DNA from: a virus
Virus record (IMG/VR): IMGVR_UViG_3300035162_002296
Coordinates: 1-25,375 of that record
Strand: one strand, 5' to 3'
Length of the DNA stretch: 25,375 bases
Notes under the pieces: generated by a model
What the model was told of the DNA's origin: nothing
Seen by the model: the letters and a program-made list of their open reading frames with translations, nothing else
Database searches by the model: none
In this document: in pieces, positions 6,426 through 25,239 of the stretch
How the letters are laid out: every line of letters begins with the position of its first letter
How positions within the stretch are numbered: position 1 is the stretch's first letter
Position numbers and translations under genes: made by a program

Positions 6426-6686
6426 TTAGCCAAATTTAGCTGCAAACTTTTTAAGTGGTAAAGTATCGAATGAACCAAACTCATCCGAGACTCTATAACT
6501 CAATTTACCGCCTGATAATAGTGGCTTCGCTGAATATAATTTGCCATCTTTAGCTCTCAAACCCGTGATTTCAGCACCAGATAAAGAAAGGCCCTTCAGC
6601 TTTGGAGCTTTAGCTTCGTCTACAGGATCTTCAAGTATCAATTCGACCTCGTCGACGCCCTTTATATAATCGTTAAATGATTTCAT
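6426..6686 (-). CDS. Small late protein with MKSF N terminus, 86 aa
   Basis: It starts MKSFNDYIKGVDEVELILED, resembling in its first eight residues the T4 capsid-targeting peptide MKTYQEFIAE (aromatic at 4 and 7, acidic at 6, Ile at 8), but without Glu at 10. The C-terminal part (SGAEITGLRAKDGKLYSAKP...) looks like a small beta domain. ATGA overlap couples it to the gene upstream. Function unknown; head packaging is a weak suggestion. Confidence 0.6.
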   Translation of the reverse strand: MKSFNDYIKGVDEVELILEDPVDEAKAPKLKGLSLSGAEITGLRAKDGKLYSAKPLLSGGKLSYRVSDEFGSFDTLPLKKFAAKFG

Positions 6687-16611: not shown

Positions 16612-16619
16612 TATAAATA
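16612..16619 (+). promoter_or_regulatory. T4-type late promoter TATAAATA
   Basis: An exact late core lies 23 bp before the 476-aa gene, between the early replication module and the late genes. Confidence 0.75.
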
Positions 16620-16642: not shown

Positions 16643-18073
16643 ATGAAAAGTTTCACTGTTTTTTTAGAATCATTATCCCCTGCAGATGAGAATCGCTTGG
16701 CGCTGGAGATCGTAACAGAGATTGATAACGCTATTGGTTCAATTCCCACAGAAATTTCTATCGACGACAGACCTAAGAAATCTAACAGCGCAAAGCTCGG
16801 GATTTCTCAGTTGATGGCTGATAAAGATAGAACCAAATATGCTCCGTTAGCAAATGACTTCATATCCTCTCATGCAGACTTAGAGATTGCTTCGGTACCG
16901 GCAGCTCGCCGTGAGAAAGATTATGCCTTCAAGCACAAGGACATGGATCGAATTGTCTATGTGAATGCTAGACCAGATGGCAAGCGTTCTGGTGCTGGTG
17001 ATGACCCACATGAATTGATGACTGCGTCTCTCATGCTGAAATCAAGCATCACTAATCCTACAAACTCGGATGAGATGGATGTTATGATTGAAGAGGTTCG
17101 TGGTAGCTTGAGTAAAGTCAAAGGATATAAACAAGGACAGGTTGACAGTCTCACAGGAGATTATTCAAATCTGGCCAAAGCAGTTTCTGCGGCTCAGGCA
17201 ATTCATGGTGCTGGTTATGGTGGGGCTGACATGGTCTATCTCACCGGTCAATCTTGGGATGAAGATGTGAAAAAATTCCAAATCTCTAAGTACGGCATGA
17301 ATGACTTTAATTCTTCTGATTTTATCATTAGAAAAGGCAACAAGCACTTGGGTGTCTCTCTGAAGAAGAAGATTCGTCTCACTGAAACCGATCCTACCTT
17401 AATCAACAAATCATTTTCCACACTCTTTGCAGACAAGAAGTTTGAAAAGATGATGAAGAATATCGATAAGAAAGCAGGCCTGTTCTATCTTAAAGTCATT
17501 GCAAGGGCTAAGAAGAAAGGTGAATTATCTCCTGCAATCTTAGCAGACATGAAAAAGACACGGCCCGATACAAAGAACTGGAAACAATATGTTCAACGTA
17601 TCAATAATGAGATTATCAATGCCGAATTGAGAACATCTCGATCGCTCTTTGAACCGATTGCCAAATCGATCATTGCAAATAAAGAGATGATTGGTAACCA
17701 GTTAGTACAATTGATTTTCAAAGCAGATTTAAAAGACTTGCAGAAAGTCGATTTCGATTTTACTCTTGTGACAGGTATCGGTGATTATGGCCCCAAGAAA
17801 GGTGTTGTAATCGAGAAGGGTGAATACAAAGACATCGATACTGTCTCAGAAAAAATAGAAAACCTCGCCTCCAAAGGTGGTGTCGAATTAGATTACACAC
17901 CAGGCAGTGTGCAGGCATTTGAACCTGGATCGACTGCTGCGATGCTACAATTTGACTTGAAACTAGGTGGTGTGGTATTATGTCATATTAAGTTGCGATA
18001 TAAAGGGAACTTTAGATCTGCTCCTTCATTTACTGCCGTGATGAGTGATGAGTTTAAAAACATATATAAGTAG
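16643..18073 (+). CDS. Late protein of unknown function, 476 aa
   Basis: It is the first gene after a late promoter and starts MKSFTVFLES, like the head-targeting peptides of T4 internal proteins (MKTYQEFIAE), although the Glu is one position early. The middle has helical, Lys-rich segments and a possible degenerate nuclease core: SSDFIIRKGNKHLGVSLKKK, where D226 and S239-x-K241 have the spacing of D...(E)xK. The C-terminal part (FDFTLVTGIGDYGPKKGVVI...) looks alpha/beta with a final beta sheet. No known family is recognised with confidence. Candidates are a packaged DNA-binding or nuclease-like protein, or a structural protein. Confidence 0.75.
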   Translation: MKSFTVFLESLSPADENRLALEIVTEIDNAIGSIPTEISIDDRPKKSNSAKLGISQLMADKDRTKYAPLANDFISSHADLEIASVPAARREKDYAFKHKDMDRIVYVNARPDGKRSGAGDDPHELMTASLMLKSSITNPTNSDEMDVMIEEVRGSLSKVKGYKQGQVDSLTGDYSNLAKAVSAAQAIHGAGYGGADMVYLTGQSWDEDVKKFQISKYGMNDFNSSDFIIRKGNKHLGVSLKKKIRLTETDPTLINKSFSTLFADKKFEKMMKNIDKKAGLFYLKVIARAKKKGELSPAILADMKKTRPDTKNWKQYVQRINNEIINAELRTSRSLFEPIAKSIIANKEMIGNQLVQLIFKADLKDLQKVDFDFTLVTGIGDYGPKKGVVIEKGEYKDIDTVSEKIENLASKGGVELDYTPGSVQAFEPGSTAAMLQFDLKLGGVVLCHIKLRYKGNFRSAPSFTAVMSDEFKNIYK

Positions 18074-18080
18074 GAGTTAA

Positions 18081-18806
18081 ATGAAACCTTTTAGTTATGA
18101 AATATTTCGAGATGTGAAGGGCAAAGAATTGAGGAATACCTTTCCGGGTTGGTTTGATATAGAAAAGAACTATTCGGAATGTCTGCAAGATATTTTTGTT
18201 TTGATGGCAACAAATGGTAAGAAGAATGGTTCTTATGTAGAGATTGGATGTGATCAGCCATATCATAGAAGCAATACGGCTATTCTCCAAGAACATGAAT
18301 GGGTTGGTGTGAGCTTTGATATCAACAAAGCTGCTGTAGACGATTGGAATGAGAAACGGGGCAAGTTCAATATCAAGGCTCCTGTAGGTGGTAGAAATAG
18401 AGCATATGCTTGTGATGCTACTACAATATATCTGTCAACCTTTTTGTCTCAACATTCGCTTGGCAGAGACATAGATTATTTGCAATTAGATATTGATCCG
18501 CCAGATTTGACATATCAGGCAATGCATAGAATACCTTGGGACTATCATAGGTTTGCTGTTATCACATATGAACATGATAGTTATTTTTATCCAGACAAAG
18601 ATTATAGATCTCTGTCGAGAGAATTTTTGACAAAGAAGGGTTATGTACTGGTGGCCCCGAATATATCACCAGACGAAGATCGCACGAGAGCATTTGAAGA
18701 TTGGTGGGTACACCCTGAGTTGATTGAACCAGATGTCCTCGAAAAAATAAAAAGTTTAAGTGATGAACATAAAACACCAATGGACTATTTACTAGGAAAA
18801 GTTTAA
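18081..18806 (+). CDS. FkbM-like SAM-dependent methyltransferase, 241 aa
   Basis: Motif I reads SYVEIGCDQPYHRSNTAILQ (51-70), as in FkbM proteins (VDIGAN-type loop plus SNT). The acidic end of strand 2 is GVSFDIN (76-82), and IDYLQLDIDPPDLTYQAMHR (about 131-150) is the following strand. This fits a Rossmann methyltransferase acting on a sugar or other hydroxyl. The neighbours include GT32, GT25 and a sulfotransferase, suggesting surface-glycan work. Start preceded by TAGGAG. The stop overlaps the next start (TAATG). Confidence 0.75.
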   Translation: MKPFSYEIFRDVKGKELRNTFPGWFDIEKNYSECLQDIFVLMATNGKKNGSYVEIGCDQPYHRSNTAILQEHEWVGVSFDINKAAVDDWNEKRGKFNIKAPVGGRNRAYACDATTIYLSTFLSQHSLGRDIDYLQLDIDPPDLTYQAMHRIPWDYHRFAVITYEHDSYFYPDKDYRSLSREFLTKKGYVLVAPNISPDEDRTRAFEDWWVHPELIEPDVLEKIKSLSDEHKTPMDYLLGKV

Positions 18807-20035
18807 TGATTTCTTTTAAAGATTATCTTGTCGAAGGTAAAAATCTGCATATGACTCACCTAGAAGATGCTCTTCTGGATGGTGGTGTGAAGGGAACACG
18901 TAATGTTATCCTTTATCTCCGGTCTTTGCGGGATATGCTAGCAGGCAACACAAGCGCCCCCATTAGTATTACCACCAAGTGGGATGGTGCCCCTGCTATT
19001 TTTGCTGGCACAGATCCCAGTGATGGGAAATTTTTTGTGGCCAAGAAAGGTGTCTTTAATAAAGAACCAAAAATATATAAAACAAATGCTGAAATTGATA
19101 ATGATCTGAGTGGAGATCTGGGTGCAAAGTTTAAAGTTGCGCTTGCAGAATTCTCGAAGCTTGGAATTGAAGGAGTAGTGCAAGGTGATTTCCTCTATAC
19201 GAACGACGATCTCAAGACAGATAACATTGATGGAGAACCGCATATTACTTTCCATCCTAATACCATTGTTTACGCGATACCTCTCGGCTCAGAACTCGCT
19301 AAAACGATTTCAAGATCCAAGATCGGAGTGGTCTGGCACACAGTATACAGAGGTGACTCTTTTGAAACAATGTCAGCAAGTTTTGGAAAGGCGATCACAC
19401 CAGGTCTCAAAAAAATAAATTCTGTGTGGAATGTAGATGCTATATTTAAAGACGCATCAGGAACCGCAACATTTACTGACCAAGAAACAAAAGAATTCAC
19501 TGCCCTATTATCTAAGGCAGGGAAATTATTTCAAGGTTTGAAGCGAGGTGTTCTAGACGGGTTGCACACAAATTCCGAATTAAACATGAGAGTCAATACA
19601 TATATAAACTCTAAAGTTCGAGAAGGATCTAGAATAGGTGACACTAAGTCATTCACAATGGGCTTGATCAATTTCATCGAAGATTACTATCAGAAACAAG
19701 CAGACAAGAGAAAGACTCCTGCCGGAAAGGGCAAACAAGTAGATGCTAAGAACTCTGTATTGGAATATTTCAATAAGTACAAGCAGTCAGATATCGAAAA
19801 AGTGTTCCAATTGTATGATATGTTAGTTGACGCTAAGCATGTTGTCATAGATAAACTAAATACTGTTGACGGCATGAAAACCTTTTTGAAGACTTCTAAA
19901 GGGTTTGAAGTAACCGGTCAAGAAGGATTTGTTGCCATTGACCACATGGGCAAAAATTCATTGAAGTTAGTAGATCGATTACAATTCAGTAGGGCAAACT
20001 TCTCTACCGATTATATTAAAGGCTGGCAAAAATGA
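18806..20035 (+). CDS. Ligase-like nucleotidyltransferase with KxDG motif, 409 aa
   Basis: SITTKWDGAPAIFAG carries the KxDG nucleotidyltransferase motif I (K58-W-D60-G61) of ATP-dependent ligases and capping enzymes. FFVAKKGVFN (77-86) resembles motif Ia, and GVVQGDFLYT (124-133) motif III (hydrophobic-G-[DE]-hydrophobic). IGVVWHTVYRG (173-183) could be the motif IIIa/IV region. I believe it belongs to the uncharacterised phage family DUF6267. The N terminus MISFKDYLVE|G aligns position by position with the T4 capsid-targeting peptide MKTYQEFIAE|A, with the cleavable L-x-E|G. So it may be packaged and injected. Late and translationally coupled on both sides. Confidence 0.7.
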   Translation: MISFKDYLVEGKNLHMTHLEDALLDGGVKGTRNVILYLRSLRDMLAGNTSAPISITTKWDGAPAIFAGTDPSDGKFFVAKKGVFNKEPKIYKTNAEIDNDLSGDLGAKFKVALAEFSKLGIEGVVQGDFLYTNDDLKTDNIDGEPHITFHPNTIVYAIPLGSELAKTISRSKIGVVWHTVYRGDSFETMSASFGKAITPGLKKINSVWNVDAIFKDASGTATFTDQETKEFTALLSKAGKLFQGLKRGVLDGLHTNSELNMRVNTYINSKVREGSRIGDTKSFTMGLINFIEDYYQKQADKRKTPAGKGKQVDAKNSVLEYFNKYKQSDIEKVFQLYDMLVDAKHVVIDKLNTVDGMKTFLKTSKGFEVTGQEGFVAIDHMGKNSLKLVDRLQFSRANFSTDYIKGWQK

Positions 20036-20253
20036 CGAATCGGATTCTGCTCTTAACAGATATAATAGAACAGAAGATCCGAAAAGAAAAAGAGCTTGCT
20101 TATTACCAAGACCAATTGGATGAGTTGAATTCTAAAATGTGGTGGATTCAAAAAGAAATAAATGTCACCAACCTTTGTATTGAGGTGATTCAAACCGAAA
20201 AGGCTAATATTATTTCGGGTAAATTATTGGGGAAACGTGAGGATGAACATTGA
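20032..20253 (+). CDS. Coiled-coil protein, 73 aa
   Basis: ATGA overlap with the ligase-like gene. The product (MTNRILLLTDIIEQKIRKEK, then ELAYYQDQLDELNSKMWW...) is predicted as a continuous helix with heptad-like spacing of Leu/Ile, without membrane segments. It may be a partner of the upstream protein. Its end overlaps the glycosyltransferase start. Confidence 0.6.
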   Translation: MTNRILLLTDIIEQKIRKEKELAYYQDQLDELNSKMWWIQKEINVTNLCIEVIQTEKANIISGKLLGKREDEH

Positions 20254-20887
20254 GAAAAAAATCACTCAAATATGGATAGGGCCCAAACCACCTCCTACTA
20301 AGTGGATGAACACATGGAAGGAGATGCACCCCGATTGGGAACACACTGTTTTCACAGATCAAATGCTCAAGTCTAGAACTTGGTTTAACCAACACCTCAT
20401 AGACCACTATTATAAAACAGAAAAATGGCCTGGTGTCTCTGATCTCATTCGATATGAGTTGTTATGGGAGCAAGGCGGCTTTATGCCAGAAGCAGATTCG
20501 GCTTGTTTGCGACCTGTAGATGAGTTGTTCACATCACCAAAAAATTATGCATATTCTTGCTATGAAAACGAAAAGTATGCACCAGGCTTTATCTGCCCCA
20601 TCCTTGCATGCAACCCAAAGAATGATCTTGTTGGTTATATCATCAAGACTTTAAATAAATTGAAGCCACACGAACTTAAACCCGAGCCTTTTAGATCTAC
20701 CGGCAATCTATTTCTATCTAAGATCGTGCCGAAGTTTTCGACGTGCACACTCTTCCCATCTTACTTTTTTGTGCCCCAGTGGTATTATGGTCCTCGATAT
20801 GACGGCCCCGGCAAGATCTATTCAGATCAATACTGGGGCTCTACTGGACTACATAAAAATGTAGTAACATATGATAAAGGAACTTGA
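20243..20887 (+). CDS. GT32-like glycosyltransferase, 214 aa
   Basis: The start ITQIWIGPKPPPTKWMNTWK is typical of GT32 enzymes (IPK.IHQ.W.G...P...). GVSDLIRYELLWEQGGFMPEADSACL is the conserved core, SD..RY..L...GG; where family members have YxDxD, this protein has MPEADS, so the first Asp of DXD becomes Glu. It may still bind a metal, or prefer another donor. It transfers a sugar, perhaps to host or phage surface glycans. ATG 20243 (GGGGAAA upstream) is preferred over the in-frame GTG 20237. The next gene is a sulfotransferase. Confidence 0.75.
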   Translation: MNIEKKITQIWIGPKPPPTKWMNTWKEMHPDWEHTVFTDQMLKSRTWFNQHLIDHYYKTEKWPGVSDLIRYELLWEQGGFMPEADSACLRPVDELFTSPKNYAYSCYENEKYAPGFICPILACNPKNDLVGYIIKTLNKLKPHELKPEPFRSTGNLFLSKIVPKFSTCTLFPSYFFVPQWYYGPRYDGPGKIYSDQYWGSTGLHKNVVTYDKGT

Positions 20888-20889
20888 TC

Positions 20890-21576
20890 ATGTATCTATC
20901 TCACAAATATAAATTAATCTTTCTAAGAGCGCCCAGATCTGCTGGTAGTAGTATAGTGGAATTTTTAGTTAAGAATCTTGACGATCCTGAAGCTATTCAC
21001 ACCACTGTGGAAGATGGAGACACTATACAGGGCAATGTCCCTCCAGTAATGCTTCTAAATAAAAGACATCAAAGATGCCACCTGTCTATTGAGGACCTGA
21101 TAGAATATTCACTCATATCCAAGAAACAGGCAAAAGAATATTATGTCTTTACGATATTGAGAGATCCAGTAGAAAGGCAACGAAGTTTCTACCGTTTCTT
21201 AAAACAATGGTGGTCACCAGACACCGAGCCCTCCGCAGAAGAATATATAGATTGGAACCCGGACGGTTATTCATTTCGAAAAGAATCCAGAACGGCAATC
21301 AAAACAATGGATTTGATAAAATTAAATGATTCTATCGTGGGGAAAGTTTGGCTGTATGAGTACATAGAAGGACATTTAAAGGATTTGATGGCATCCTTAA
21401 ATACAAAAGTTGTACATCCTATGCCACACTATAAGAAAACAAATAAACCTGATCTTGATATTAGTTTTTCAATTGAAATGCTCAGTATTATTAAAAAAGA
21501 CTTCCTAGAAGATTTTAACACATATTCACAACTCAGAGTACAAAGTTATGAAACCGACCCGCGCTATTATCCTTAG
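20890..21576 (+). CDS. Sulfotransferase (Sulfotransfer_2-like), 228 aa
   Basis: KLIFLRAPRSAGSSIVEFL gives the 5'-phosphosulfate loop at residues 7-20, and FTILRDPVERQRSFYRFLKQ (near 89-108) the 3'-phosphate motif (R-D-P-x-x-R-x-x-S). This is the pattern of membrane-type carbohydrate sulfotransferases and differs from the tandem pair at 10344 and 11042. It probably acts on the product of the glycosyltransferases on both sides. ATG 20890 with AAGGA upstream is preferred to TTG 20884. It overlaps the GT25 gene by 29 bp. Confidence 0.78.
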   Translation: MYLSHKYKLIFLRAPRSAGSSIVEFLVKNLDDPEAIHTTVEDGDTIQGNVPPVMLLNKRHQRCHLSIEDLIEYSLISKKQAKEYYVFTILRDPVERQRSFYRFLKQWWSPDTEPSAEEYIDWNPDGYSFRKESRTAIKTMDLIKLNDSIVGKVWLYEYIEGHLKDLMASLNTKVVHPMPHYKKTNKPDLDISFSIEMLSIIKKDFLEDFNTYSQLRVQSYETDPRYYP

Positions 21577-22276
21577 ACACCAATCGTCTGTGTCTCACCA
21601 ATATGCACTTCAAACTGCACAATCATGTGATGCTGTCGGCTTGCCGTGGCACTATTATGATGGCTATTCAAATATGACAGGGAAGGATGCTTGGGGCCAG
21701 ACTGGAATTAAAGTACAATTTGAATTTAATGATCCGCCTGTTGAGATGCGGCCTGAAGATTTGTTGCCAGATCATAAAGCCAATTGCGCAAGTGCAGGGC
21801 ATGCTGGAATCTGGTCACAGATTGCCAAGGGTAATGATGAAGCAGTTGTTGTCCTAGAACATGATGCGATGATGCTTCAACCAGTCGACATAGACATCCC
21901 TGAGCGCACAATCGGTGTCTTGGGCTATAAAGTCACAGATCCCCAAAATTATCGACACATAGAAGCAGGGCCACCAAAAACATGGATCGATATAGATGGA
22001 CACGAAGGTGCGCATGCTTATGTACTCACAAAGGATACTGCACAATACCTTGTCGATGAGATTGAAACCCAAGGTGTTAGAGGTGCTGTTGATAACATCT
22101 ATTTTATCAGAGGCCAAAGGCGAACACGAATTCCTCTGAAAATTGCATCACCGACACCTGCCATTGGTTGGATAAGAGAATCAACTATCTGGGCTGGTGG
22201 TCAATCTGCGACGAGCAACTACAAATTTATAAATTCATTTGATCGTCACTACAGTAAAGACAATAAATATAAATAA
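21548..22276 (+). CDS. GT25-like glycosyltransferase, 242 aa
   Basis: RAIILRHQSSVSHQYALQTA, then CASAGHAGIWSQIAKGNDEA and VVVLEHDAMM (E104-x-D106) match the GT25 (LPS beta-glycosyltransferase) layout: N-terminal donor strand, GH..W segment and acidic E/D-x-D motif. GAHAYVLTKDTAQYLVDEIE and GAVDNIYF are the conserved C-terminal parts. It follows a sulfotransferase and a GT32 enzyme, so together they may build or edit a sulfated sugar. The late promoter of the next gene overlaps its stop codon. Confidence 0.78.
   Translation: MKPTRAIILRHQSSVSHQYALQTAQSCDAVGLPWHYYDGYSNMTGKDAWGQTGIKVQFEFNDPPVEMRPEDLLPDHKANCASAGHAGIWSQIAKGNDEAVVVLEHDAMMLQPVDIDIPERTIGVLGYKVTDPQNYRHIEAGPPKTWIDIDGHEGAHAYVLTKDTAQYLVDEIETQGVRGAVDNIYFIRGQRRTRIPLKIASPTPAIGWIRESTIWAGGQSATSNYKFINSFDRHYSKDNKYK
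22268..22275 (+). promoter_or_regulatory. T4-type late promoter TATAAATA
   Basis: An exact late core overlaps the end of the GT25 gene and lies 30 bp before the 977-aa gene. Confidence 0.72.
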
Positions 22277-22305: not shown

Positions 22306-25239
22306 ATGCCTAAAAAGATTAAAGAAGTCGAAGATCAAGACGTTGATCAAGATGAGAAGCCCGCGAAGCAGGCCAAAAAAGAGCCTGAAAAGAAAGACAA
22401 AAAGAAGTCTAAGAAGATGGCTATTGCTTTCAAAGAATTTGATCCTGGCAAATATGTTGAGATCAATCCTGTTACCGAGGCTGTCAAGAAGAACGAGATC
22501 GTAATCTCTTTTGGTCGTATGAATCCAATTACAATTGGACATGAAAAAGTAGCAGATAAAGTCCTATCTATTGCAAAGAAGACCGGCGCTGAAGCTGGAA
22601 TCTATTTGTCTCACTCTCAAGATGCCAAGAAGAATCCTCTGTCTTATGATCAAAAGATCAAATATGGCCAGGCTGCATTCGGTAAGATTGTAAAGAAATC
22701 AAAGTCAAAGACAATTATTCAAGTAGCTCAAGAACTTCAGAATTCATTCAAGAATTTGACTATTGTTGTTGGGTCAGATCGTGTTAAAGAATTCGAAACA
22801 TTGCTCAATAAGTACAACGGTAAAGATTATACTTATGATGCTATCAATGTAGTCTCTGCTGGAGAACGAGATCCTGACGCCGAAGGAGCAGAAGGAATGT
22901 CTGCATCCAAAATGCGCAAGGCCGCAGCAGACGGTGATTTCGATTCATTCAAGAAAGGCTTGCCTAAAAAACTCCAACGAAAAGCACAAGAGGTTTGGGA
23001 TGCGGTTACTGGGGCGATGAATGAAGAAGTAGAACTTGATGAAGCAAAGTCTGCTACAGGATATGACCTGTATCACAAGACATACTCTGATGCAATGCAA
23101 CATGCTTATGCACATGCTAAGAAGAAGCATGGCGTAACTGTTAGTTCCGATGAAATTGATAGTAAAGTTGCAATGGGACCAAAGAAACCGTCTACTGGTA
23201 AAACTGTATCCCACATTCTTGGAACTAATAAGAAGAAAAATCTTCACGTTCAGGTCTACAACACTGGTAAGTCATACGAACTCAATATGTATGTTGAGGG
23301 TGTTGAAGAGTCCGAGGTCGAAGAAGCTTTGAATCCGGCACAACGCCGGGCCCGTGGCATACAGATGAAGAAGTTATCCAAAAAGATTGCTCGTAAGAAA
23401 AAGCAAACAATGAAGAAGCAGGCCTCTACCGAAAAATTGAAGGGACGTGCAGAAAAAGCGGCAAGAAACATTCTGAAGAAGAAGATTTCTGCTGGTAAAG
23501 ACACAGATGACTTGTCATATGCCCAGCGGCAAAAGATTGATGATAAAGTTAAAAAGATTGGGGGAGCTAAATTAAAGACTCTTGCCAAGAAGTTATTGCC
23601 TCAGATTAAGGCAAAAGAAAAAGAACGAATTAAAAAATTGCGTTCGAAAAAAGAAGAGTTTGTAGATGAGACAATTGATCTCAAGGAAGCTCTCGATTCT
23701 TATATGGAAGGTGGGATGCTCGACGAAGCAAGACATGCGCCAGTAAGAATCATGGCCCGCCCCCATCGCTTGTTGTCGGCAGACAATAAAGTTAAAATTG
23801 ACATGAGATTCAGTCAATATCGAAAATGGAAGCCCATTGTCGAACCCGCACCTAGTACAGATCAGGTCGACTCTCCCGAGCCGGAACTTGATGAAGAGGA
23901 TCCTTGTTGGGATGGATATCAGCAAGTAGGCATGAAGAAGAAGAACGGCAAGAAAGTTCCTAATTGTGTCCCCGAAGAATTCGAAGAGAATCTGAACCCT
24001 AGGCAGATTGCACTGCTCAAGAAAAACTATTCTACAATTGACCGGATCGACCCCAATGGCCCTGCATACAAGAAAGCAAAAGGGATGATTGCTGGATTAG
24101 AGAAGGATAACCTGATTGACTTAGCAAAATCAAAGGTCAAGTTCATATCACAGATGGCGGCTGACGAGTTACGAAAGACACATAATGTCAAGTTGAAGGC
24201 CTCTGAATACATGGAGTCAGTAGATCTCGAAGAAATCGAGGAAGGTGTCAATGATCCAGCTATATTTAAAGCCATCTTCTTGGCGGGAGGCCCAGGTTCT
24301 GGCAAGTCATTCATTGCAGGTAAGTCTGCTTTCTCTACATTTGGGATGCGTGTAGTCAATTCTGATGACGCATTCGAAAGCGCGATGAAGAAAGCTGGAT
24401 TGGATCTGGGTAAAGACATATTCACTGACAAAGGTCAAGAGATCCGTAGCAAGGCTGTGGATATAACAAAAATGAGACAAGACTTGTATATCAAGGGCCG
24501 GCTTGGTCTTGTCATCGATGGAACTGGCAAAGAATATGATAAAATCAAAAATCAAGCTACCGAGTTAAAGAAACTTGGTTATGATGTTTCTATGGTCTTT
24601 GTCAATACAAGCCTTGAAACTGCTCAGGAACGAAATCAAAATCGTGATAGGAAGTTGCCTGAAAAACAAGTAGAAAAGATGTGGAAAGAAGTTCAAAAGA
24701 ACATCGGCAAATATCAGTCTCTATTCAAGAAAGACTTCATCGTTGTTGATAACAGCGAAGGTGTTAATTGGGAAAAGGGCGTAATGAAAGCATATAAATG
24801 GGCTATGAAATGGTCTAAGAAGGAACCACAAAGCTCAACGGCTCAAAAATGGATATCCGACATGCGCGAAGAGTTGGAAGAATCTACATTCGAAGGTTCT
24901 GTTATTGATTCTGTAGTCCCTTGGTTAGGTCGATGGCTCGACACAAGGGTCAAAAAGAAAGCATACACAGCTGCTATTAGATACTTCCTTAAATTACGAA
25001 AGAAGAAGCCCGGAGAAGCAAGAAAGAATCTCGTCAAGTCTGCTCAGGTTTTTGATCTTGATGTAAGAGCATTGGATAAGATGTTCAGAGATCTTGTCGC
25101 CAAAGGAGCTATGCCTAAACATCTTATCCAATATCATCCTACCTTTAAACCTGAATCGTATGATAATGAAGCCGGGGCCGGTGAAGAGGGCTCTGATAAA
25201 TTAGTAAACAATTATAAGTCCGACACGCCTGGAGAATAA
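22306..25239 (+). CDS. 977-aa multidomain protein: nucleotidyltransferase, P-loop kinase
   Basis: After a Lys-rich tail (1-37), residues about 63-235 form a cytidylyltransferase-like domain: SFGRMNPITIGH (69-79, the HxGH-type motif), VVGSDRV (154-160) and SASKMRKA (199-206, the ISSTxxR-type motif), as in NMNAT. Residues 253-331 (YDLYHKTYSDAMQHAYAHAK...) are a module I associate with T4-like marine phages. A very basic stretch follows (340-450). Residues 656-855 are a P-loop kinase (GGPGSGKS 661-668, VVNSDDAF, GLVIDGTGKEYDK, lid NRDRKLPEKQ). A 118-aa helical C terminus ends it. Sites of the T4 prohead-protease type lie at 246|247, 461|462, 474|475, 646|647 and 859|860. Late promoter upstream. 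Domains are seen; polyprotein processing is inference. Confidence 0.8.
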   Translation: MPKKIKEVEDQDVDQDEKPAKQAKKEPEKKDKKKSKKMAIAFKEFDPGKYVEINPVTEAVKKNEIVISFGRMNPITIGHEKVADKVLSIAKKTGAEAGIYLSHSQDAKKNPLSYDQKIKYGQAAFGKIVKKSKSKTIIQVAQELQNSFKNLTIVVGSDRVKEFETLLNKYNGKDYTYDAINVVSAGERDPDAEGAEGMSASKMRKAAADGDFDSFKKGLPKKLQRKAQEVWDAVTGAMNEEVELDEAKSATGYDLYHKTYSDAMQHAYAHAKKKHGVTVSSDEIDSKVAMGPKKPSTGKTVSHILGTNKKKNLHVQVYNTGKSYELNMYVEGVEESEVEEALNPAQRRARGIQMKKLSKKIARKKKQTMKKQASTEKLKGRAEKAARNILKKKISAGKDTDDLSYAQRQKIDDKVKKIGGAKLKTLAKKLLPQIKAKEKERIKKLRSKKEEFVDETIDLKEALDSYMEGGMLDEARHAPVRIMARPHRLLSADNKVKIDMRFSQYRKWKPIVEPAPSTDQVDSPEPELDEEDPCWDGYQQVGMKKKNGKKVPNCVPEEFEENLNPRQIALLKKNYSTIDRIDPNGPAYKKAKGMIAGLEKDNLIDLAKSKVKFISQMAADELRKTHNVKLKASEYMESVDLEEIEEGVNDPAIFKAIFLAGGPGSGKSFIAGKSAFSTFGMRVVNSDDAFESAMKKAGLDLGKDIFTDKGQEIRSKAVDITKMRQDLYIKGRLGLVIDGTGKEYDKIKNQATELKKLGYDVSMVFVNTSLETAQERNQNRDRKLPEKQVEKMWKEVQKNIGKYQSLFKKDFIVVDNSEGVNWEKGVMKAYKWAMKWSKKEPQSSTAQKWISDMREELEESTFEGSVIDSVVPWLGRWLDTRVKKKAYTAAIRYFLKLRKKKPGEARKNLVKSAQVFDLDVRALDKMFRDLVAKGAMPKHLIQYHPTFKPESYDNEAGAGEEGSDKLVNNYKSDTPGE

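Follow-up and report, generated by a model that had tools for sequence, protein, structure and literature searches.

Can the protease that matures a phage head also release several enzymes from one packaged chain? This question is raised by a stretch of viral DNA of 25,375 nucleotides (IMG/VR record IMGVR_UViG_3300035162_002296, positions 1 to 25,375; the whole stretch is hereafter termed the window). On its plus strand, an open reading frame (ORF) of 977 amino acids runs from an ATG to a stop codon at positions 22306-25239 and encodes a nucleotidyltransferase and a P-loop kinase, joined by linkers that contain matches to the cut motif of the T4 prohead protease, gp21. The window also encodes homologues of gp32, UvsX and gp41. 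Its closest isolates belong to the Kyanoviridae, among them Pelagibacter phage HTVC008M and Methylophilales phage Melnitz; the source is a marine T4-like (Kyanoviridae-type) phage. We conclude that ORF 22306-25239 probably encodes a head-packaged polyprotein that is cut by gp21. This reading, already put forward in a preliminary description of the window made from its letters alone, is supported by the conservation of the sites, their placement at the joints between domains, a leader on the separate-gene form of the kinase, and the presence of homologues in virions.

Predicted protease sites at the domain limits

We use the term strict site for [LI]xE↓[AGS], the arrow marking the cut. The five sites named in the preliminary description (LDE↓A246, LKE↓A461, LDE↓A474, IEE↓G646 and LEE↓S859) are all present, and ORF 22306-25239 contains no further strict site. 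Missed at that stage were VTE↓A58, which has valine at P3 and lies just before the nucleotidyltransferase, where most homologues carry L/I-x-E↓A, and two weaker sites, VEE↓S335 and VEE↓A340. The claim that the gene has a late promoter also holds: a T4-type late core, TATAAATA, occupies 22268-22275 on the plus strand, about 30 nucleotides 5' of the ATG. Each of the five TATAAATA-type cores of the window precedes a same-strand ORF start by about 15-40 nucleotides, and a late core is found at most 70 nucleotides upstream of 44 of 51 homologous nucleotidyltransferase genes, compared with 77 of 520 background ORFs.

The chain opens with a disordered N-terminal propeptide (residues 1-58, 22306-22479) with a predicted local distance difference test score (pLDDT) below 50 nearly throughout, which ends at VTE↓A, a predicted cut. 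It is followed by a HIGH-superfamily nucleotidyltransferase (residues 61-241, 22486-23028), recognised by a Pfam CTP_transf_like match, a phosphopantetheine adenylyltransferase (PPAT) fold and the conserved motifs GRMNPITIGH at residue 70 and MSASKMR at residue 198. The predicted cut after residue 246 (LDE↓A, 23035-23046) falls inside the low-pLDDT segment 242-255 and precedes a recurrent GYDLYHKTYSDAMQHAY module (residues 248-335, 23047-23310), which is bounded by the weaker sites at 335 and 340 and is also found in other proteins of homologous loci. A very basic helical segment (residues 341-461, 23326-23688; net charge +26) then runs to LKE↓A; its pLDDT is 79-96 over residues 351-450, and a stand-alone homologue of 123 residues occurs in HTVC008M. 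LKE↓A461 and LDE↓A474 (23680-23730) are two predicted cuts 13 residues apart in a disordered linker, within the low-pLDDT segment 450-488. Next come a DPCWDGYQQVGMKKKNGKKVPNCVPEE module (residues 520-560, 23863-23985) that recurs in other loci, the predicted cut after residue 646 (IEE↓G, 24235-24246), exactly at the kinase start, and the P-loop kinase itself (residues 647-850, 24244-24855), which is nearest to polynucleotide 5'-kinases. The last predicted cut, after residue 859 (LEE↓S, 24874-24885), lies two residues from the low-pLDDT segment 861-865 and sets off a C-terminal helical piece (residues 866-977, 24901-25236; pLDDT about 90 for residues 880-930); the two-gene relatives L003 and L004/L005 likewise have this piece downstream of the kinase. 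All these parts lie on the plus strand. Predicted N termini of the fused form are GVNDPAIFK after E646 and STFEGSVIDSVVPWLGR after E859; for the kinases of Melnitz and HTVC008M the corresponding predictions are GVYDPNIFK and GLYDPGIFK, respectively. The module at residues 520-560, DPCWxGYxxxGMKKKxGKxVPNCVP, is shared with other proteins of marine phages and also exists as small stand-alone genes whose start resembles a leader (MLSFQQYLDEKCWDGY at L053:6058 and MLSYNQFVTEKCWDGY at L065:5786).

Both enzyme domains are real, with Pfam matches above the curated cut-offs (CTP_transf_like, 69-205; Zeta_toxin/AAA_33, 655-817). Structure prediction left out three rows from annotated records; AlphaFold, applied to 34 homologues, places confident domains at about residues 61-240, 341-450, 650-860 and 866-940. 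Segments with pLDDT below 50 cover residues 1-26, 28-47, 51-60, 242-255, 288-323, 325-339 and 450-488 in the N-terminal half and 508-560, 627-646, 861-865 and 944-947 in the C-terminal half. Sites 58, 246, 461, 474 and 646 are within such segments and 859 is two residues off, and no site interrupts a confident domain; the sites are located in or at most two residues from the low-confidence joints between domains.

Within the linkers of this protein, five sites compare with 1.2 expected (p=0.007), and the mirror motif is absent from the whole ORF. The sites are, moreover, conserved among homologues, the opposite of the outcome that the preliminary description named as a refutation. In 38 homologues with less than 70% identity to one another we counted 125 strict sites, against 42.9 (standard deviation 6.1) in composition-preserving shuffles, a comparison whose z-score overstates independence because the homologues are kin, and against 40.4 in local 30-residue shuffles. 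The mirror motif occurs 38 times in the same set, and Asp replaces Glu at P1 in 13 cases versus 43 expected. Only two sites fall in the 7,735 residues of the two enzyme domains, with 123 in the 17,900 residues outside them, and 14 of 25 homologues have a strict site at most 45 residues downstream of the nucleotidyltransferase domain. Since whole genomes exceed expectation only slightly (77 versus 72 in HTVC008M, 119 versus 95 in T4), the enrichment is specific to the polyprotein family.

The strongest single result is the kinase boundary, where every one of the 33 distinct kinase copies has Glu at P1 and Gly at P1' in the same position. This E↓G is an internal joint in the fusions and lies at residue 8-18 in separate-gene kinases. 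The P1 Glu at the kinase start is kept in 19/19, 16/16 and 5/5 copies at redundancy thresholds of 80, 70 and 60%, respectively. The family thus carries [LI]-x-E↓[AGS] at domain-limit or leader positions, as T4-type gp21 substrates do, and we infer that gp21 would cut there.

Leaders on separate genes and homologues in virions

Separate-gene kinases begin with the leaders MKTFNQFISE↓G, MKDFKTFVDE↓G and MKTFAELQE↓G, the first of which (10 residues) is a near copy of the capsid-targeting sequence (CTS) of the T4 internal proteins IPII and IPIII, MKTYQEFIAE↓A. Our scan of T4 recovered this known IPII/IPIII leader, MKTYQEFIAE↓A, in two genes; in a 95-residue protein that fits IPI it found ITE↓A19. 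All 80 copies of the cyanophage nucleotidyltransferase gene start with M-K-x-F-[SN]-A-F-L-x-E↓A. Across 472 non-redundant ORFs of homologous loci, strict sites peak at residues 9-17 (58 versus about 11 per bin; mirror motif, 11), and these N-terminal sites head many unrelated families. The leader carries information at residues 4 and 7 (F/Y), 8 (I/L) and 10 (E); the way in which the sequences were selected fixes positions 8 and 10 and has no bearing on 4 and 7. These conserved marine positions are exactly the ones to which genetic work on T4 IPIII attributes targeting (residues 4 and 7) and processing (8 and 10) (PMC9026906).

CTS-type leaders (aromatic residues at 4 and 7, I/L at 8, E at 10) are found on the separate-gene relatives and on a neighbouring gene at 18806-20035; ORF 22306-25239 itself has none, its own leader being the 58-residue segment that ends in VTE↓A. 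Fusions usually keep the processing residues (P3 and P1) and lose the targeting residues, as expected if the former are retained for cutting. The possibility that a full targeting sequence is hidden at the internal sites was rejected, as the upstream hexamers are no better than random positions (p=0.84); a clear exception to hexamer loss is FKSFKQYIEE↓G in L067.

In the loci of marine T4-like phages (L001-L080, L215-L231), the T4-like leader is also found at the start of dozens of proteins that are unrelated to one another, for example MLRFKTYLDE↓G at L006:10053, MKRFKTHLVE↓A at L061:7974 and MKRFKTFKSLSE↓A at L220:2547, a distribution that suggests a large unrecognised set of virion cargo. 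On the minus strand of the window, an 86-residue protein (6426-6686) that starts with MKSFNDYIKGVDEVELILEDPVDE↓A is another possible tagged head protein.

Homologues of gp21 are present in all four relatives scanned, and gp23 carries the cut motif at the T4 place in S-SCSM1 (FLAE↓A) and Melnitz (FLSE↓A; FLTE↓A65 in T4). As a positive control, the core protein gp22, known to be cut at multiple sites, has the top or near top site count in each genome scanned. Homologues of the first domain have been detected in virions: the cytidylyltransferase T4-GC190 in purified S-SM1 particles (PMC3037559), a homologue resembling nicotinamide mononucleotide (NMN) adenylyltransferase (NMNAT) in S-SCSM1 (PMC9602691), and a cytidylyltransferase in S-CREM2 (PMC10665884); S-CBWM1 and another estuarine phage are cited in PMC9602691, and S-SZBM1 is likewise cited in these virion papers. 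In S-SM1 as in S-SCSM1, the cytidylyltransferase gene bears the leader. The S-SCSM1 NMNAT-like protein begins MKSFLQFLKE↓AAESGASVQAK, and its predicted N-terminal peptides are AAESGASVQAK if processed and EAAESGASVQAK if unprocessed. Within the open-licence PubMed Central literature, we found no report in which virions had been examined for the kinase or for the fused form.

Proposed cargo enzymes, possible function and alternatives

The kinase model best matches the polynucleotide kinase of Clostridium thermocellum (VIA Z 17.1, root-mean-square deviation (rmsd) 2.7, 165 residues aligned), followed by tRNA(Sec) kinase (PSTK; VIA Z 16.7), zeta toxin (14.5), T4 polynucleotide kinase (14.2) and adenylate kinases (about 14). 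All 33 kinase copies contain the P-loop, NSD and IDGTG-type motifs, and the protein has the P-loop fold with base Asp and lid Arg of polynucleotide 5'-kinases, a combination shared with PSTK, zeta and adenylate kinases. The first domain matches PPATs (VIA Z 14.5, rmsd 2.9, 153 aligned), and its motifs are kept in 77-102 of 102 copies, depending on the motif. A sequence search of solved structures returned a weak match for the kinase and nothing usable for the nucleotidyltransferase; among isolates, matching kinase records came only from HTVC008M, Melnitz and Atu_ph07. The basic segment probably contacts DNA, in keeping with the DNA-contacting internal proteins.

The tagged neighbour at 18806-20035 (plus strand; leader MISFKDYLVE↓G) encodes an RNA-ligase-like DUF6267 protein (Pfam PF19782). 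Its invariant residues K58-W-D-G, E373-G374 and K387 form ligase-type motifs, and its list of structural matches is led by RNA ligases (VIA Z 9.0-7; best rmsd 3.8, 187 aligned); by VIA, the protein combines the KxDG motif with a ligase fold, as ATP-grasp RNA ligases do. The leader tag is present in many non-cyanophage DUF6267 homologues. No paper on DUF6267 was found in the open-licence PubMed Central literature. In most kinase loci the kinase and ligase genes are near each other, and kinase, ligase and nucleotidyltransferase genes co-occur repeatedly, in changing order, separate or fused. Because of the kinase fold and motifs, the RNA-ligase-like neighbour, this co-occurrence and the basic segment, we favour RNA-end repair over NAD+ salvage and propose RNA repair, with modest confidence, as the putative function of the cargo.

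NAD+ salvage is the alternative that survives best, though we consider it unlikely. It would make the protein a NadR-like pair of NMN adenylyltransferase and nicotinamide riboside kinase, packaged or made in the cell, that acts against NAD+-depleting defences. NadR does have the same domain pair, a HIGH-family nucleotidyltransferase and a P-loop kinase; phages use NadR and NadM (PMC9503650), and the authors of virion studies name the cytidylyltransferase NMNAT-like (PMC10665884, PMC9602691). However, the kinase matches Zeta_toxin/AAA_33 and polynucleotide kinases, with no NadR model reported by NCBIfam, and its usual neighbour is the RNA-ligase-like gene. Some 410 residues, predicted cut sites among them, separate the two domains, which are often encoded by separate genes. 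The fold matches listed for the nucleotidyltransferase are PPATs, which is compatible with NMNAT too.

Packaging and cutting could also amount to disposal, if the protein were a dispensable part of the core or scaffold, as gp22, gp67 and gp68 are, with cutting as removal and the enzymes undelivered. T4 core proteins undergo several LxE cuts each and mostly exit the head (PMC9026906), and gp22 homologues have among the highest site counts of the scanned genomes. Yet in the gp22 of these phages the sites are spread over the whole protein, whereas the polyprotein has them only at joints: they are nearly absent from its two folded domains (2 versus 123 outside). The catalytic motifs are also retained, the P-loop in 33/33 kinases and the nucleotidyltransferase motifs in 77-102 of 102 copies. 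We regard this explanation as improbable. Marginally less probable still is an ordinary, unprocessed multidomain enzyme whose LxE[AGS] motifs are a by-product of acidic, alanine-rich linkers: the linkers are E-rich and ORF 22306-25239 alone reaches only p=0.04, but shuffles give 43 and 40 sites versus 125, the mirror motif occurs 38 times, P1 Asp is depleted to 13, and linker composition leaves unexplained both the strict E↓G junction, which fused kinases have in common with separate ones, and the T4-like leader.

Several observations weigh against a gp21-cut, head-packaged polyprotein with RNA-directed cargo. In ORF 22306-25239 alone the motif excess is weak and marginal (five strict sites versus 1.9 expected), the targeting hexamer is not carried at internal sites (p=0.84, as above), and the window is a 25 kb fragment on which the gp21, gp22 and gp23 genes do not lie. 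The motif itself is not uniform, as gp23 reads FLGE↓I in HTVC008M and ILTE↓T in S-SM1 (P1' I and T) and some N-terminal leaders have D, E or other residues at P1'. The homologues detected in virions are mostly single-domain proteins, the S-CREM2 authors caution about possible co-purification (PMC10665884), and a cut N terminus has been observed in none of these proteins. On the side of function, the kinase fold matches are compatible with more than one substrate, since they also include zeta toxin, adenylate kinases and tRNA(Sec) kinase; for DUF6267, none of the matches by Foldseek alone was significant, and the cyanophage copies (T4-GC71 in S-SM1) are without the leader.

In the course of events that we propose for the polyprotein, late transcription, which the promoter core supports, would be followed by entry into the prohead core, as the relatives' leaders and the virion data suggest. 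There, gp21 would cut after [LIV]-x-E at 58, 246, 461/474, 646 and 859, and perhaps 335/340, judging from motif, conservation and placement. This would release the HIGH-family nucleotidyltransferase, the basic segment, the polynucleotide-kinase-like enzyme and small pieces within the head. The mature enzymes may remain with the DNA, enter the host together with it and act on host or phage RNA at entry, where the kinase and the tagged DUF6267 protein could mend broken RNA ends, e.g., cut tRNAs, at the start of infection. The polyprotein probably originated by fusion of adjacent genes, at least some of which (the kinase clearly) had a T4-style capsid-targeting leader; as P3 and P1, the residues for processing, are usually all that remains of the leader after fusion, cutting would restore the mature kinase of the separate-gene form. 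More tentatively still, marine T4-like phages might carry a virion RNA-end repair kit of kinase, DUF6267 ligase and HIGH nucleotidyltransferase, in some lineages partly as a protease-cut polyprotein, that would reseal tRNAs cleaved by host abortive-infection nucleases, ahead of all phage gene expression.

Other genes of this region include a late gene at 16643-18073 (plus strand; late core at 16612; PHROG 3060) with the tag-like start MKSFTVFLES, which contains no strict site. Its stretch SSDFIIRKGNKHLGVSLKKK resembles a PD-(D/E)xK nuclease core by eye, with no Pfam match. Between the tagged genes lie four leaderless ones (18081-18806, 20237-20887, 20884-21576 and 21548-22276), namely one that looks by eye like a possible methyltransferase, one for a sugar transferase, one for a sulfotransferase and one that weakly matches glycosyltransferase-25; they are perhaps a surface or DNA modification cassette.

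Relation to known systems

Polyvalent proteins of phages and conjugative elements (Iyer et al. 2017, PMC5512222) are multidomain chains with modular shuffling and predicted co-delivery with DNA, and some contain zeta-like kinases. ORF 22306-25239 likewise carries several different effector-like domains on one chain; unlike in polyvalent proteins, its processing is predicted to occur in trans by the prohead protease, and a Pfam scan (E up to 1) found no MuF, metallopeptidase or similar polyvalent domain in it. The word cyanophage is absent from that paper. The giant-phage systems of phiKZ gp175 and SPN3US gp245 (PMC10052503) resemble the present one in head packaging, maturation by a gp21-like protease and, for some proteins, multiple cuts. 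In SPN3US, the cuts remove propeptides (13/14 sites are N-terminal) rather than separate enzymes at joints, and the motif is A-x-E (PMC10052503).

With T4 polynucleotide kinase and the T4 RNA ligases, the locus shares the kinase fold and P-loop and, in the neighbouring gene, the RNA ligase fold with KxDG; compared with the T4 enzymes, a phosphatase domain was not found in ORF 22306-25239. The kinase and ligases of T4 are synthesised in the cell and are not known to be packaged. The cyanophage virion cytidylyltransferase (T4-GC190, NMNAT-like) is a homologous nucleotidyltransferase with the leader MKKFSAFLNE↓A that is found in purified virions, and differs in being a short separate protein of about 390 residues with no fused kinase. 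If our reading is correct, it would account for the recurrence of cytidylyltransferase in cyanophage virions.

The T4 proteins IPI, IPII, IPIII and Alt share with the polyprotein the [LI]-x-E↓[AGS] motif, late expression and a basic cargo segment, and with its separate-gene relatives the 10-residue leader with F/Y at 4 and 7, I/L at 8 and E at 10. If our reading is right, a leader M-[KR]-x-F-x-x-[FY]-[IL]-x-E↓[AGS] together with joints [LIV]-x-E↓[AGS] would serve as a rule to predict head-carried proteins among unknown genes of marine phages. Unlike the T4 proteins, the polyprotein consists of several enzyme domains with internal cut sites, has mostly lost the leader hexamer at internal sites, and carries cargo unrelated to the IPs or Alt. 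Relative to the T4 internal-protein system, multi-enzyme cargo that is processed internally would be new among the open-licence PubMed Central papers covered, and may have been described elsewhere; if the reading holds, capsid maturation proteases would mature such cargo beyond trimming shells and scaffolds.

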